DNA of 40,022 nucleotides from positions 1 to 40,022 of the forward strand of contig CANRHD010000018.1 in NCBI GenBank assembly GCA_947630285.1, read 5' to 3'. The notes under the pieces were generated by a model. It did not search any database. It had not been told where the DNA came from and worked only from the letters and a program-made list of their open reading frames with translations. The position numbers and the translations under genes were made by a program. Of this stretch, positions 1,097-39,849 are shown piece after piece (position 1 is the first letter of the stretch; the number at the start of each line of letters is the position of its first letter). The stretch is from an uncultured Clostridia bacterium (GTDB lineage Bacteria > Bacillota > Clostridia > Oscillospirales > Acutalibacteraceae).

Positions 1097-1122
1097 AAAC
1101 CGTATTCTTTGCAATACGATTT
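1097..1122 (+). repeat. Left 26-bp terminator duplication flanking element A
   Basis: The hairpin CGTATT-CTTTGC-AATACG (1101-1118) and its flanks match 1384-1409 at 25 of 26 positions; the one difference is A1119 versus G1406. It abuts the CAG end of element A at 1123. Only three T follow the stem, so this gene-proximal terminator of uppP is weakened. Confidence 0.9.
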
Positions 1123-1383
1123 CAGCGTGTAGAAAAAGTATGTTTCACTTGGCAATATGCACAAAAGGAATAAGATTATGGTGAACCCCCGGCGAGGGTT
1201 CCCCACCGAAAAACAGTCCACCGGACTGTTTTTCGCCCCTCCTGCGCTTTTTGAAGCGTAAGTTTTTCACAGTCTGCGGACTGCGCCGGGGGCTTTGCCC
1301 CTCGACCCCACCGCCTTTTTGAAAAAAGACGGACAAAAACTTTTGAACATTTTGCTATCGTAAAACAGTTTATCGACAGTCTG
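1123..1383 (+). mobile_element. Interspersed palindromic element, copy A (MITE-like, full length)
   Basis: A 261-bp element from CAG (1123-1125) to CTG (1381-1383). Its left end reads CAGCGTGTAGAAAAAGTATG. The inverted right end matches at 15 of the first 22 positions, so it has imperfect terminal inverted repeats. Inside are consecutive stem-loops: a GAACCC/GGGTTC hairpin (about 1183-1204), a perfect 13-bp stem with ACC loop (1207-1235), CAGTC/GACTG (1270-1284), GGGGC-TTT-GCCCC, and a CCGCCTTTTT/AAAAAAGACGG stem (about 1311-1332). No conserved protein is encoded. It is flanked by the duplicated uppP terminator. I infer a non-autonomous transposable element; no transposase lies in the window. 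Confidence 0.85.
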
Positions 1384-1417
1384 AAACCGTATTCTTTGCA
1401 ATACGGTTTTTGTTTTT
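1384..1417 (+). terminator. Rebuilt uppP terminator (right 26-bp duplication of element A)
   Basis: AAACCGTATT (1384-1393), loop CTTTGC and AATACGGTTT (1400-1409) form a 10-bp stem, followed by TTGTTTTTG. This is the complete terminator; bases 1384-1409 duplicate 1097-1122. Transcripts of uppP reading through element A would stop here, 50 bp before spoVAD. Confidence 0.85.
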
Positions 1418-2716: not shown

Positions 2717-2936
2717 ATTAAAAGTTTTTGTCCGTCTTTTTTCAAAAAGACGGTGGGGTCGAGGGGCAAAGCCCCCGTCGCAGTCCGCAGACTGCGAAAC
2801 ACCTGTACTTAAAAAGCGCAGGAGGGGGAGCAAAACAGCCCGGTGGGCTGTTTTGCGGTGGGGAACCCTCGCCGGGGGTTCCCAAAAACATATTCTTTTG
2901 TAAATATGCCGTGAACTACGCCCTTTTTAATGCCGA
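2717..2936 (-). mobile_element. Interspersed palindromic element, copy B (diverged)
   Basis: Same family as copy A in opposite orientation, recognised from AAAGTTTTTGTCCGTC near 2720 through the conserved GC-rich core to about 2936. The outer ends have decayed: the CAG/CTG termini are not recognisable and the end nearer 2717 lacks about 40 bp. The 12-bp core hairpin (2830-2856) is intact but has GCCC/GGGC where other copies have GTTC/GAAC or GTCC/GGAC, a compensated change. It fills the gap between two convergent genes. Confidence 0.75.
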
Positions 2937-8608: not shown

Positions 8609-8868
8609 CAGCGTGTAGAAAAAGTATGTGTCACTTGACAATATGCACAAAAGGAGTAAGATTATCGGGAACCCCCGGCGAGGGTTCCCCACCGAAAAAC
8701 AGTCCACCGGACTGTTTTTCGCCCCTCCTGCGCTCTTTATGGACAAAGATTTCGCAGTCTGCGGACTTCGCCGGGGGCTTTGCCCCTCGACCCCACCGTC
8801 TTTTTGAAAAAAGACGGACAAAAACTTTTGGATATTTTGCTATTGCAAAACAGTTTATCGACAGACTG
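8609..8868 (+). mobile_element. Interspersed palindromic element, copy C (full length)
   Basis: 260 bp from CAG (8609-8611) to CTG (8866-8868), closely matching copy A. It includes the 13-bp core hairpin (8693-8721), the CAGTC/GACTT hairpin, GGGGC-TTT-GCCCC and the CCGTCTTTTTTG/AAAAGACGG stem. In relation to the neighbouring GH2 gene (leftward) it lies in the opposite orientation from copy A relative to uppP, so insertion is not orientation-specific. No reading frame is conserved with the other copies. Confidence 0.85.
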
Positions 8869-15228: not shown

Positions 15229-15259
15229 AAAGCGGCCTTTTGAAGTCGCTTTATTTTTG
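15229..15259. terminator. Left terminator duplication of element D
   Basis: AAAGCGGC/GTCGCTTT stem followed by ATTTTTG, serving the rightward genes. It matches 15462-15494 apart from a 2-nt loop indel and one stem substitution. Confidence 0.8.
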
Positions 15260-15461
15260 GAATTTTTTGGGGAACCCCCGGCGAGGGTTCCCCACCGCAA
15301 AACAGTTCACCGAACTGTTTTGCTCCCCTCCTGCGCTTTTTGAAGCGTAAGTTTTTCGCAGTCTGCGGACTGCGCCGGGGGCTTTGCCCCTCGACCCCAC
15401 CGTCCTTTTGTAAAAGGCGGCCGAAAACTTTGAATACTTTTAGCGATTTACCGACAAAAAC
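15260..15461 (+). mobile_element. Interspersed palindromic element, copy D (left end lost)
   Basis: Same orientation as A and C, but the first 60 or so bp (the CAG terminus and GTGTAG region) are missing; homology begins at GGGGAACCCCCGGCG near 15269. The right end reads TTTACCGACAAAAAC where intact copies have TTTATCGACAGNCTG. The core hairpin (15297-15323) has GTTC/GAAC instead of GTCC/GGAC, again compensated. It lies between the DUF6472-like gene and convergent ileS. Confidence 0.78.
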
Positions 15462-15494
15462 AAAGCGGCCTCTTTTGAAGCCGCTTTATTTTTG
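15462..15494 (-). terminator. ileS terminator (right duplication of element D)
   Basis: On the minus strand GCGGCTTC/GAGGCCGC-type stem followed by TTTGTTTTTG, 19 bp beyond the ileS stop. It starts exactly where copy D ends and duplicates 15229-15259. Confidence 0.82.
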
Positions 15495-15512
15495 CAAATT
15501 TTTACTTTTAAA

Positions 15513-18756: not shown

Positions 18757-18865
18757 CAGCCTGTCGATAAACTGTTTTGCGGTGGGGAACCCTCGCCGGG
18801 GGTTCACCATAATCTTACTCCTTTTGTGCATATTGCCAAGTGAAACATACTTTTTCTACACGCTG
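18757..18865 (-). mobile_element. Interspersed palindromic element, copy E (internally deleted)
   Basis: Both termini survive: CAG (18757-18759) with CTGTCGATAAACTG, and CTTTTTCTACACGCTG ending at 18865. Only 109 bp remain. The missing block equals what would be lost by recombination between AAACTATTTTGCG and GAACTGTTTTGCG as seen in copy F (37889 and 38041, 152 bp apart), plus one base. No matching 26-bp flanks were found (18731-18756 versus 18866-18891). Confidence 0.78.
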
Positions 18866-18945
18866 TTATTTTTCGGATTTTTAACAGGTGTTTTTAAAAT
18901 ACTGCCGAAAACTTTGAATTTTTTACAGTTTACAATAAAACTACA

Positions 18946-19011: not shown

Positions 19012-19623
19012 TTATTCGTTCTCTGTTGCGTCCGCAGTCTGCTCTGCAACTGCTTCTTCTGCCTGCTCCGCAACGGGCTCTGCCGCTTCGGGAGCTTCAG
19101 TCGCCTCTTCAGCAGTTTCCTCTGCCTTAGCAGGTTCTTCCGCCTTAACAGGTTCCTCTGCCTTAGCAGGCTCCTCGGCCTTTTCAGCCTTCTTTTCGGG
19201 AGCCGCTTTCTTTGTTGAAGCGGTTTTCTTTGCGGCCCTTGACGCTGTTTTCTTTACAGGCTTTTCCTCAGCGGCCTTAGGCTCGACGAGCTCGATTATA
19301 GCCATCTCCGCCGCATCGCCCCTGCGTGTGCCTGTCTTTATAATACGGGTATATCCACCGTTAACACCCTTGTATTCGGGCGCAATCTCGTCAAAGAGTT
19401 TTTTAACAACATCTTCCTTGGTAACATATGCAAGAACCTGTCTTCTTGCGTGCAAAGTGTTGTCTTTTGCAATGGTGATCATCTTTTCAGCCATAGCGCG
19501 GACTTCTTTAGCTCTTGTAACGGTTGTCTCAACTCTGCCTTTTTCAAGCAAGTATGTTACCAAACCCCTGAGCATGGCTCTGCGATGGTCAGTAGGTCTG
19601 CCGAGTTTTCTTGTACCGGGCAT
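19012..19623 (-). CDS. rplQ: 50S ribosomal protein L17 with long charged C-terminal tail
   Basis: Residues 1-114 form a complete L17 ([20 protein letters not shown] to the IIELVEP end), a 23S-binding protein near the exit tunnel. L17 normally ends at about 112-130 aa, but this protein runs to 203. Residues about 121-150 are Lys/Ala-rich; about 151-203 are Glu/Ala-rich, with repeated AKAEEP units. The tail should be disordered and strongly acidic at its end. Frame and codon use continue without a break. Last gene of the superoperon, 15 bp after rpoA. Confidence 0.96.
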
Positions 19624-36546: not shown

Positions 36547-37824
36547 ATGGTTAAAGCTATTGTCGGAGCTAACTGGGGCGACGAGGGTAAAGGCAAGATA
36601 ACCGATATGCTTGCCGGCGAAGCCGATATTGTCGTCCGTTTCCAGGGCGGCGCTAACGCAGGTCACACTATAATAAACGAACGCGGAAGATTTGTCCTTC
36701 ACCTTATGCCCAGCGGAGTCTGTTACGAAAATGTAAAATGCGTTATAGGCAACGGCGTTGCGCTTGACATCAACAAATTTTTTAACGAACTCGACGGCCT
36801 AAAAAAAGCCGGACTCAATCCCAACCTCTGTGTTTCGGACAGGGTTCAGCTTCTTATGCCCTACCATATTCTTCTTGACGAATACGAGGAGGAGCGTCTC
36901 GGCAAAAACGCTTTCGGCTCTACAAAAAGCGGTATCGCTCCGTTTTTCTCGGATAAATATGCAAAAATCGGTATTCAGGTAAACGAGCTTTTTGACGAGG
37001 AAACGCTCAGGGCGAAATTAAAGAACATATGCACCCTTAAAAATCTTACGCTCAAATATGTGTATAACAAGCCCCTGCTCTCCGAAGAGGAGCTTTATGA
37101 AACCTGTATGCAGTATAAGGAAAAAATCGCCCCGTATGTTTGCGACACCCATAAGCTCTTGTTTGACGCTGTAAAAGAGGGCAAAAACATACTGCTTGAG
37201 GGCCAGCTCGGCACACTTAAAGACCCCGATTTCGGAATTTACCCCATGGTCACATCATCTCCCACCCTCGCAGGCTACGGCGCTGTCGGCGCAGGTATCC
37301 CTCCGCATGAAATAAAGGAGATTGTCGTTGTTACAAAGGCTTACTCCTCCGGCGTAGGCGCAGGCGAGTTCGTTTCCGAAATACTTGACGAAGAGGAAGC
37401 TCAGGAGCTTAGAATACACGGCGGCGACAGGGGCGAATTCGGCGCAACAACGGGCAGACCGAGAAGGGTCGGCTGGTTCGACTGCGTTGCGAGCCGTTAC
37501 GGCATAGACTGTCAGGGCACTACAAAGGTTGTAATGACAGCCCTCGACTGTCTTTCGTACCTCGATGAAATAAAGATTTGCACCGCATATGAGGTTGACG
37601 GCAGGATCATAAAGGATTTTCCGCCCACTCCCGTTTTGAAAAAGTGCAAGCCCGTTTACGAAACCCTCAAGGGCTGGAAATGCGACATCAAAGAAATAAA
37701 AAATTACGACGATTTGCCGAAAGAGGCAAAGGCCTATGTGGAATTCATCGAAAAACAGCTTGGCCGTAAAATAAATATGGTATCGAACGGTCCGCAGAGA
37801 GAAGCCATAATTTACAGAGATTGA
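36547..37824 (+). CDS. purA: Adenylosuccinate synthetase
   Basis: 425-aa GTP-dependent enzyme joining IMP and aspartate, the committed step to AMP. NWGDEGKGK holds the P-loop and catalytic Asp12; GGANAGHTI carries His40; GDRGEFGATTGRPRRVGW near residue 295 is the GTP/IMP region. Length is normal. Its terminator follows at 37851-37876 but is interrupted by element F. Confidence 0.97.
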   Translation: MVKAIVGANWGDEGKGKITDMLAGEADIVVRFQGGANAGHTIINERGRFVLHLMPSGVCYENVKCVIGNGVALDINKFFNELDGLKKAGLNPNLCVSDRVQLLMPYHILLDEYEEERLGKNAFGSTKSGIAPFFSDKYAKIGIQVNELFDEETLRAKLKNICTLKNLTLKYVYNKPLLSEEELYETCMQYKEKIAPYVCDTHKLLFDAVKEGKNILLEGQLGTLKDPDFGIYPMVTSSPTLAGYGAVGAGIPPHEIKEIVVVTKAYSSGVGAGEFVSEILDEEEAQELRIHGGDRGEFGATTGRPRRVGWFDCVASRYGIDCQGTTKVVMTALDCLSYLDEIKICTAYEVDGRIIKDFPPTPVLKKCKPVYETLKGWKCDIKEIKNYDDLPKEAKAYVEFIEKQLGRKINMVSNGPQREAIIYRD

Positions 37825-37850
37825 TTTTGATGTAAAGCCGAATAAAATTT

Positions 37851-37876
37851 TTCTCCCCTTGAAAGCAAGGGGAGCT
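37851..37876 (+). repeat. Left 26-bp terminator duplication of element F
   Basis: Perfect copy of 38139-38164: a CTCCCCTTG/CAAGGGGAG hairpin with short loop. It is followed at once by CAG of element F in place of a U-tract, so the purA-proximal terminator is incomplete. Confidence 0.95.
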
Positions 37877-38138
37877 CAGTTTGTCGATAAACTATTTTGC
37901 GATAGCAAAATGTCCAAAAGTTTTTGTCCGTCTTTTATCAAAAAGACGGTGGGGTCGAGGGGCAAAGCCCCCGTCGCAGTCCGCAGACTGCGAAATTCTT
38001 GCGCTTCAAAGAGCGCAGGAGGGGGGCAAAACAGTTCAGTGAACTGTTTTGCGGTAGGGGAACCCTCGCCGGGGGTTCCCCATAATCTTACTCCTATTGT
38101 GCATGTTGCCGAGTGGCACATACTTTTTCTACACACTG
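37877..38138 (-). mobile_element. Interspersed palindromic element, copy F (full length, exact 26-bp flanking duplication)
   Basis: 262 bp between CAG (37877-37879) and CTG (38136-38138), in the opposite orientation to A, C and D. The termini align inversely at 16 of 22 positions (CAGTGTGTAGAAAAAGTATG against CAGTTTGTCGATAAACTATT). Internal hairpins are all present: TTTTGCGATAGCAAAA near the left end, CCGTCTTTT/AAAAGACGG, the 12-bp core stem (38026-38052), and GGGAACCC/GGGTTCCC. The two flanking 26-bp repeats are identical, so this is probably the youngest copy here. Confidence 0.9.
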
Positions 38139-38170
38139 TTCTCCCCTTGAAAGCAAGGGGAGCTTTTTAT
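38139..38170 (+). terminator. Rebuilt purA terminator (right duplication of element F)
   Basis: CTCCCCTTG/CAAGGGGAG hairpin (38141-38162) followed by CTTTTTATATCTTTT. Complete intrinsic terminator; bases 38139-38164 equal 37851-37876. Confidence 0.9.
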
Positions 38171-38242
38171 ATCTTTTGTCCTGCGAAAATAATTAGTATC
38201 GGCAAATATAATTTATCGTCCGTATAACTTTTTCCTACTCCC

Positions 38243-38271
38243 TTGCAATAACTCCGAAAATTATATATAAT
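38243..38271 (+). promoter_or_regulatory. Promoter of guaA
   Basis: TTGCAA (38243-38248), a 17-bp spacer and TATAAT (38266-38271); leader about 40 nt with TAGGAGG before the ATG at 38320. Confidence 0.85.
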
Positions 38272-38319
38272 TATAATATTCAAAATGCAAGCTCTTTTGC
38301 TTTAGGAGGACGCTTTTTA

Positions 38320-39849
38320 ATGGAAAAAATTCTCGTTTTGGATTTCGGCGGCCAATACAATCAGCTTATCGCCCGAAGAGTGCGCGATAACAATGTCTAT
38401 GCCGAAATTCTGCCATACACAACGCCTATTGAAAAAATCAGGGAAAATAATTACAAGGGTATAATTTTTACCGGCGGGCCTAACAGCGTTTATGACGAGG
38501 CTTCGCCGCACTACAGCAGGGAAATATTAAATCTCGGTATTCCGGTACTCGGAATTTGCTACGGCTGTCAGCTTATCGCCTGGATGCGTGAGGGAAAGGT
38601 TGCCACCGCCCCCGTTTCGGAGTACGGAAAAATCGAGGTTACGCTTAATTGCAACAGTCTGCTTTTCAAGGATATACCCGAAAAAAGCACGGTTTGGATG
38701 AGCCATACCGATTATATTTCTCAGCCGCCGCAGGGCTTTAAAATCACCGGCACAACGGATAACTGTCCCTGCGCCGCTATGGAAAATCCCGAAGAAAAAA
38801 TATATGCGGTACAGTTCCACCCCGAGGTTACACATTCCCGGTTCGGCAAAGAGATACTGCGCAATTTCCTGTATCTTGTCTGCCGTTGCTCCGGCGACTG
38901 GATAATGGACGACTTTATCGACAGAACCGTAGCCGATTTGCGTAAAAAAATCGGAGACAAAAAAGTAATTCTCGGCCTTTCCGGCGGAGTTGACTCGTCC
39001 GTTGCCGCCGCTCTCATTTCCCGTGCCGTCGGCAAACAGCTAACCTGCGTTTTTGTTGACCAGGGGCTTATGCGTAAGGACGAGGGCGATTTTGTGGAAA
39101 AGACCTTCACTTCGCTTTTTGATATGAATTTTGTAAGGGTGAATTGTCAGGAGCATTTTCTTTCAAAGCTCAAGGGCGTTACCGACCCCGAGGAAAAGAG
39201 AAAAATAATCGGCACCGAATTTTTCAATGTCTTTTGGAACGAAATTCGCAAGGAAAACGACAGAGGATTTTTTGCTCAGGGCACAATTTACCCCGATTGC
39301 ATCGAATCCGGCAAGGGCGACGCCGATGTTATAAAGACCCACCACAACAAGGTTAAAATGCCCGATGATGTGGAGTTTGAGGGACTTATAGAGCCGCTGT
39401 GCGACCTGTTTAAGGACGAGGTCCGTGCCGTCGGCGAAAAGCTGGGTATACCAAAGGAGCTTGTCTGGCGCCAGCCGTTCCCAGGGCCGGGACTCGGCGT
39501 GCGTATTATAGGCGAAATTACTGCTGAAAAGGTTAAAATTTTGCAGGAGGCGGACGCAGTTTTCCGTGACGAAATGGCAAAATCGGGCTACGAAAGCGAA
39601 TTGAGCCAGTTTTTTGCGGTTCTCCCGAATGTAAAAACCGTCGGCGTTATGGGCGATCACAGAACATACGAGCACCTTATTGCCCTGCGTGCCGTCACAA
39701 CCGACAATTTTATGACCGCCGACTGGGCGCAGATACCTTATGACCTCCTCGCCCGTGTTTCCAACCGCATAACAAACGAGGTGGAGCATGTCAGCAGAGT
39801 AGTCTACGACATAACCTCCAAACCCCCCGGAACAGTTGAGTGGGAATGA
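38320..39849 (+). CDS. guaA: GMP synthase (glutamine-hydrolysing)
   Basis: 509-aa two-domain enzyme converting XMP to GMP. The class I glutaminase domain (1-185) has Cys80 in GICYGC, with His167 and Glu169 in FHPEV. The ATP-pyrophosphatase domain has SGGVDSS at 221-227. The C-terminal dimerisation domain ends KPPGTVEWE. The last bases GAGTGGGAATGA form the conserved guaA 3' end used as an att site by many genomic islands; the coding frame is intact. Confidence 0.98.

Follow-up and report, generated by a model that had tools for sequence, protein, structure and literature searches.

A probable IS1182-type MITE in an uncultured Clostridia bacterium whose insertions are bounded by duplicated whole hairpins

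Most DDE transposases generate a short target duplication of fixed length. Members of the IS1182 family have been reported to target palindromes and terminator hairpins, and in the available text of the same papers a duplicating outcome for IS1272 is confined to pathway b of a model (PMC4923244, PMC5678879). The accessible parts of other sources describe an IS1182 element with 4-bp repeats (PMC3196728) and place IS1182 among ten families that are overrepresented between convergent genes (PMC9208149). For IS1630 of Mycoplasma fermentans, duplications of 16–26 bp are given in the accessible accounts. In the available texts of the openly licensed literature, neither IS1182-family elements nor a MITE were recognized as duplicating a whole hairpin. 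ISfinder reportedly lists IS1182 duplications of 0–60 bp, and its curators may have seen hairpin duplication. The first-pass annotation of the locus described here regarded such a MITE as undescribed in Clostridia, which needs dividing: hairpin targeting by the IS1182 family is already in print (PMC4923244, PMC5678879), and duplicating the hairpin instead of deleting it is the new part, as far as the accessible portions of this literature extend.

The window, the whole stretch of 40,022 nucleotides that was analyzed, contains a 262-bp element, element F (37877..38138, plus strand), between purA, which encodes adenylosuccinate synthetase (ORF at 36547..37824, plus strand; Pfam PF00709, E 2e-94), and guaA, which encodes GMP synthase (ORF at 38320..39849, plus strand; Pfam PF00117 and PF00958). 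The element ends in CAGTTTGTCGATAAAC on one side and in CAGTGTGTAGAAAAAG when read from the other side, and it is taken to be an IS1182-type MITE on the basis of its sequence, of 40 full-length genome copies that were scored, and of the match of its ends to those of the IS1182 family. A 26-bp direct repeat without mismatches (37851-37876 and 38139-38164) bounds the element, and the CAG end (37877) and the CTG end (38138) touch the two repeats with zero bases between them, just as the first-pass annotation had described. The repeat folds into a 9-bp stem with a 4-nt loop and, in agreement with the earlier claim that it is restricted to the purA locus, occurs in the window in two copies, both at element F (repeat finder, family D10). 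Each copy had also been read as a whole terminator hairpin; both are hairpins, but a terminator scan of 37800-38330 reported the right copy alone as terminator-like. The right hairpin copy (38139..38164, plus strand), together with its T-tract, thus constitutes the remaining terminator, and the left copy (37851..37876, plus strand), in which the T-tract is missing, is not a terminator by sequence because element F stands where the T-tract was.

Element F carries neither a transposase nor a known gene; a 122-aa ORF with a TTG start lies at 37859-38227. A search of 37500-38500 against RNA families gave no match at E <= 1. The RNA fold of the element is strong (z -8.4), and two-sided changes are present in 4 of 63 consensus pairs; an RNA function was considered and dropped, and none is claimed, because the palindromic modules of a MITE would yield the same folding and covariation signal.

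As had been stated earlier, the window has five other sites with complete or partial copies of the element (about 1123-1383, 2720-2891, 8609-8868, 15264-15447, and 18757-18867), and three of these copies sit between duplicated hairpins of other sequence, which the first-pass annotation had overlooked. Copy A, recognized by sequence, is full-length (1123..1383, minus strand) and lies between hairpin copies at 1097..1122 and 1384..1409 that are 96% identical (repeat family D7). Copy C (L008), also full-length (8609..8868, minus strand), is flanked on either side by a GGGGAGCATA...CTTCCCCG hairpin whose two copies have diverged, and copy D, recognized by sequence and with decayed ends (15264..15447, minus strand), is accompanied by a hairpin pair at 15237-15268 and 15472-15503 (repeat family D8, 91%). 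No hairpin duplication was seen around the other two copies, both recognized by sequence: copy B, which is partial and has unrecognizable ends (2720..2891, plus strand), and copy E, a 111-bp copy with an internal deletion and both ends kept (18757..18867, plus strand), which has TTATTT on either side and no hairpin. Elsewhere in the window, at 19104-19193, an 18-bp tandem repeat is present in four units that are 64–81% alike in the register shown (family D4).

A search of the host genome (2.03 Mb in 33 contigs) listed 48 matches, of which 40, full-length or nearly so and 86–100% identical, were all taken with their flanks, and eight, of 26–28 bases, were discarded as self-complementary inner pieces. 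The 39 full-length copies besides element F are 86–92% identical to it; as the first look gave 117 candidates, 40 of which were scored, the genome probably contains more copies. Duplications were called by aligning the left flank of each copy to its right flank, with a score of at least 13 required and with mismatched flank pairs serving as the control. A direct repeat bounds 34 of the 40 full-length copies, compared with 3 of 1560 mismatched left–right pairs; the first-pass annotation had proposed this genome-wide flank test and had named a majority of copies without duplications or terminators as the result that would speak against it, and that result was absent. All but one of the 34 repeats are whole stem-loops folding at -8 kcal/mol or below, compared with 79 of 1700 equally long stretches nearby. 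These 33 folding repeats measure 21–40 bp (median, 27) and differ in sequence between sites. No more than two bases are left unpaired outside the stem at the 5' edge of any of the 33, and the same holds for the 3' edge of 30 of them. The hairpin boundary in the MITE set was judged by these fold offsets and not by the pairing profile; an ungapped test of the symmetric pairing profile, covering 30 of the 40 copies, showed no step at the boundary. Being short, non-coding, and multi-copy, with terminal inverted repeats and target duplications, the element has the properties by which a MITE is recognized.

The duplication is missing in six of the 40 copies. One of them (L011) has a hairpin at the right side only, two (L021 and L023) have a hairpin at the left with none like it at the right, and the remaining three (L019, L029, and L040) were seen by eye to have AT-rich repeats of 7, 8, and 4 bp, respectively. 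The repeat at L032 is AT-rich, 23 bp long, and non-folding; both L029 and L032 are located in AT-rich sequence. Eleven extra left ends in the host genome were inspected, none of which belongs to an autonomous copy: a duplication is present in two (L092 and L097) and an AT-rich repeat of 11 bp in one (L095), another (L098) is not the element, a right end is missing from four, and three run into a contig end. The internally deleted copies of about 110 bp, namely copy E of the window and L095, thus have AT-rich flanking repeats of 6 and 11 bp and no hairpin.

The gene context of the 34 duplicated copies, according to a simple ORF call, is convergent at 14 sites, tandem at 16, divergent at 1, and unresolved at 3. 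Over stretches of 8 bases, the T fraction is 0.65 where the right hairpin copy ends and 0.33 where the element begins, and the A fraction is 0.57 where the left hairpin copy starts. Two further regularities were sought and given up. An orientation rule relative to transcription is not claimed, the tandem sites among the 34 giving 11 (+,+) and 5 (-,-) cases, and selective decay of the left hairpin copy was rejected, as among the pairs that differ the left copy is the more stable in 7 and the right copy in 9.

Several observations concern the body of the element. In an alignment of the 40 host copies, the internal hairpins show matched alleles (e.g., TTC-GAA and TCC-GGA) that occur in different combinations from copy to copy, as though hairpin modules had been swapped or their pairing maintained. 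Two copies, L088 and L094, appear by eye to be mosaics with a seemingly inverted inner part, and two others, L090 and L096, are interrupted near the ends of host contigs by another sequence, the end of which resembles an IS3-type terminal repeat.

Both ends of the element share the pattern CAGNNTGTNGANAAA, and the same pattern was found at both ends of transposase-bearing insertion sequences in other genomes. In 15 of 98 genomes sampled from the order, none of the 15 belonging to the host's family, a PF13751 match was present. Five transposases used as queries all match the NCBIfam IS1182 model (NF033551; 403.5 bits for the first, the cut-off being 270), as well as Pfam DDE_Tnp_1_6 and DUF772. 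At two of the IS1182-family loci, L115 and L112, the pattern is present at both ends with zero mismatches, and L115 and L111 are flanked by exact copies of a perfect hairpin of 30 bp and 34 bp, respectively. A scan of species genomes with an alignment of the five transposases covered the best 80 of 569 relatives. At 90 of the 103 loci L108-L210, the transposase was detected by tblastn. Ends were recognizable at 77 of these 90 by a pattern that had been derived from the MITE itself; 13 loci without recognizable ends and 10 with a flank of fewer than 20 bases were set aside, leaving 67 loci from Clostridia and Bacilli.

At 49 of the 67 analyzed loci, the ends of the element anchor a direct repeat, compared with 2 of 4422 mismatched pairs in the control. 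The repeats are 20–42 bp long, 41 of the 49 are exact, and 48 of the 49 fold as hairpins; the elements that they enclose are 1473–1845 bp long. At L177 (Clostridiales bacterium CCNA10), and at L123 and L164, which look like one site counted twice, the two hairpin copies are identical except that the loop is exactly inverted (AGAT versus ATCT), equivalent to one hairpin copy having been flipped, at two independent sites among the 49 duplications.

These observations make it quite probable that element F is an IS1182-family MITE that was placed by a trans-acting transposase at a terminator cruciform, with the whole hairpin being duplicated. According to this model, a transposase from an insertion sequence with CAG...CTG ends would be supplied in trans to mobilize the element and would bind the palindrome of an intrinsic terminator extruded as a cruciform. 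With regard to strand polarity, the 3' ends of the element would be joined to the two 5' feet of the stem-loops, across the four-way junction, so that each stem-loop would stay on one side and repair would copy both, leaving a complete hairpin on either side of the element. The duplication would then be as long as the hairpin (20–42 bp), because the points of attack would lie at the junction whatever the arm length. For transcription coming from the left, the right copy would keep its T-tract, and for transcription coming from the right, the left copy would keep its A-tract; as the far copy thus keeps a T-tract in each direction, the terminator should remain and the element should simply join the transcript. 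Such neutral insertion would explain the dozens of copies at gene ends, and the largely convergent and tandem gene context of the 34 duplicated copies agrees with terminator-preserving insertion.

The alternative that survives best, although we consider it unlikely, is that the duplication arises on linear duplex DNA through a long and variable stagger, the palindrome serving for binding only and no cruciform being extruded. It draws on the composition of the IS1182 repeats, whose first base is A in 38 of 49 and whose last base is T in 41 of 49, and on their pairing profile, in which complementarity about the center is 0.86–0.94 at 1–7 bases inside the boundary, 0.61–0.69 over the outermost base of the repeat and the next two beyond it, and 0.29–0.55 at 3–8 bases outside; pairing at the repeat boundary is therefore gradual, with no sharp step. 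However, the repeats match stem-loops over a range of 20–42 bp, which would be hard to achieve with one fixed transpososome geometry. Extending the preferred cruciform model to a Bacillota group of IS1182-type transposases and its MITEs, the four-way junction would be recognized over sequence, the hairpin would set the length of the duplication, and the attack would occur at the 5' feet; the model for IS1272 uses the 3' feet, and duplication and deletion would be two outcomes of one structure-guided mechanism. We lean toward this broader reading with a good deal less confidence than toward the model for element F itself.

As for the family to which the transposase would belong, no IS1182 transposase was found in the host genome with the PF13751, PF05598, and NF033551 profiles, and none was found above the cut-off in 39 genomes of the genus, three of which gave weaker matches. 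A PF05598 search of 30 relatives gave three matches, one of them within the genus, at a locus without such ends, and one of the three genus genomes with weaker matches (G129) contains a relic of such an insertion sequence (L211), with the same end abutting a hairpin. An autonomous partner was accordingly seen neither in the host genome nor in the genus genomes examined; it is possible that the partner has been lost or is unassembled, and the link from MITE to transposase rests on the ends and on the shared target. The first-pass annotation had pointed to IS1630, and an IS30-family transposase of that kind, which duplicates inverted repeats, would account for the behavior, to judge from the title of the IS1630 paper and from the duplications described in M. 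fermentans. The likeness therefore holds for behavior, as far as the accessible record goes, but not for descent: no HTH_38 match is present in the host genome, and a PF13936 search of 26 genomes, followed by inspection of seven IS30-type loci of relatives, gave scattered matches with two mismatches, no end with fewer than two mismatches to the pattern, and no convincing ends, while IS1182 loci carry the pattern at both ends, some without a mismatch. An IS30-type partner is therefore very improbable. With ends that fit the pattern, and with the same target mode as IS1182 members that have these ends (34 of 40 MITE copies and 49 of 67 loci), element F is, judged from sequence comparison, most likely a MITE of IS1182 type and not of IS30/IS1630 type.

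Sites without the insert were examined in relatives. The upstream gene end of 24 of the 34 duplicated copies was sought in one congeneric relative, G001, and 21 of the 24 sites were located. A left end of the element was absent within 220 bases at all 21, and 20 of the 21 had no element-like match in 500 bases. At the site orthologous to that of L014, which holds a full element in the host genome, G001 has a 79-base match to the element core behind the gene, with no ends (L248). Ten of the 21 sites were regarded as homologous, in that the hairpin and the flank beyond it both align better than 95% of base shuffles. A second hairpin copy was found at none of these ten, and nine fold as one hairpin, the exception (L259) being a 13-base match that does not fold; at the L004 site, G001 has one copy of the 24-bp hairpin, with no differences in sequence. 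Two hairpins at empty orthologous sites, the other finding that had been named as contrary to the first-pass annotation, were thus not encountered, and its central claim of transposition with duplication of a whole terminator stem-loop gains support from these sites as well as from the host copies.

At the purA site, G001 has one hairpin that is unrelated in sequence, so the site is not comparable base by base. A survey of the sequence downstream of purA covered 21 relatives including G001, one of which has no sequence behind purA; in 19 of the other 20, no element-like match is present in up to 500 bases, the exception (L222) being a 20-base match to the element end with an E value of 0.001, and no pair of like hairpins was seen behind purA by eye.

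Natural empty sites of an IS1182-type relative provide further backing for a whole-stem-loop target duplication. Three of five plasmid copies lie between exact hairpin repeats, of 30 bp (L238), 22 bp (L240), and 27 bp (L241), and two (L239 and L242) do not. The L241 copy, on an Enterococcus faecium plasmid, has a transposase about 45% identical to the query, and of 126 matching plasmid records, nine cover at least 80% of the joined flanks. Three empty-site records contain the 27-bp hairpin once, two of them exactly and one with two mismatches, and the occupied site contains it twice. Two more copies on Bacillota plasmids, 72% and 51% identical to the query used to find them, are flanked by a 24-bp hairpin repeat. 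A staphylococcal plasmid match annotated as IS1182 family covers 47% of that query at 23.9% identity. Hairpin duplication was seen at none of five proteobacterial IS1182-family plasmid copies (L271-L275), three of which have other ends and two of which have no recognized ends; together with the IS1182 element with 4-bp repeats (PMC3196728), these copies indicate that hairpin duplication is not a property of the whole family. That the hairpins instead belong to the mobile unit, as the ends of a 314-bp element inserted with no target duplication, is scarcely credible even though they adjoin the element ends without a spare base, as their sequence and length vary from site to site while the element ends stay constant, and as insert-free sites contain one hairpin of like sequence.

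The simple duplication model does not yield all the IS1182 loci. At 13 of the 18 loci without a duplication (L110, L113, L131, L132, L134, L138, L139, L159, L166, L185, L186, L189, and L205; 13 of the 67 analyzed), a hairpin abuts each end, the two being different, and the other five (L119, L167, L178, L194, and L206) have doubtful ends; L167 and L189 were scored as non-duplicated, and an alternative choice of ends gives a duplicated hairpin at both. Recombination between copies or chimeric assembly would explain the two-hairpin loci, 11 of which come from metagenome assemblies and none from named isolates, compared with 31 of the 49 duplications from isolates, as assigned from genome titles. 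Such loci would also be expected if hairpin pairs in general were produced when terminators recombined or when replication switched template from one to another, the element being a mere bystander. To this explanation we give almost no weight, since at 49 of 67 loci the repeats begin right at the element ends and insert-free sites have one hairpin with continuous flanks.

Among 40 genomes searched, the host included, 14 match the MITE, and 13 of these 14 lie within the genus. Both ends were sought at nine loci of relatives and found at four, of which three (L041, L065, and L055) have a duplicated hairpin and one (L042) has two different hairpins. In one relative, G006, five contigs (C14, C18, C29, C34, and C35) break off within the element, about 75–150 bases in, and the hairpin adjoining the left end was judged by eye to differ from contig to contig. 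The divergence of the host copies from element F, together with only 8 identical repeat pairs among the 34, makes the spread look old, and the lack of a partner in the assembled genome along with the diverged copies suggests that the family is probably no longer moving in this host.

That the duplication ranges in length between 20 and 42 bp and is coextensive with the hairpin at the target suggests that DNA shape is being recognized. Duplicating a terminator would constitute a safe-landing strategy, in which the target is non-coding and a terminator is left for each direction of transcription, and it would account for the origin, at gene ends, of families of intergenic repeats that fold strongly and are not RNA genes. 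The dozens of natural target sites and the insert-free counterparts of some of them offer material for a direct test of cruciform targeting, and with a gene-less element and transposase-bearing relatives at hand, shape versus sequence recognition by the transposase becomes testable.

Among known systems, SPRITE, and QMITE2 as the target of IS1111, resemble element F as small repeats with or at stem-loops and differ from it in that the accessible text describes no whole-hairpin target duplication for them (PMC10969869). IS1630 (Calcutt 1999, cited in PMC3317919) shows like behavior, judged by the title of the paper, and is described as IS30-type; the comparison of ends covered the IS30-type loci of relatives, which lack those of element F. 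The proteobacterial plasmid elements share the IS1182-family annotation but not the hairpin duplication. IS1272/TnSha1 of staphylococci, a member of the IS1182 family, also targets hairpins, many of them terminators, with no fixed sequence, but it is reported in the available text to delete or replace the stem-loop without duplication (PMC4923244, PMC5678879), a target mode seen neither for the element nor for the IS1182 relatives analyzed here, in which the hairpin is duplicated. The closest systems are insertion sequences of the IS1182 family that have CAG ends and occur in Clostridia and Bacilli (NF033551; e.g., L115, L136, and L241), which are like element F in their ends, in the duplication of a whole hairpin, and in the length range of that duplication, and which differ from this 262-bp element without a known gene in carrying a DDE transposase (about 477–508 aa in the five queries).
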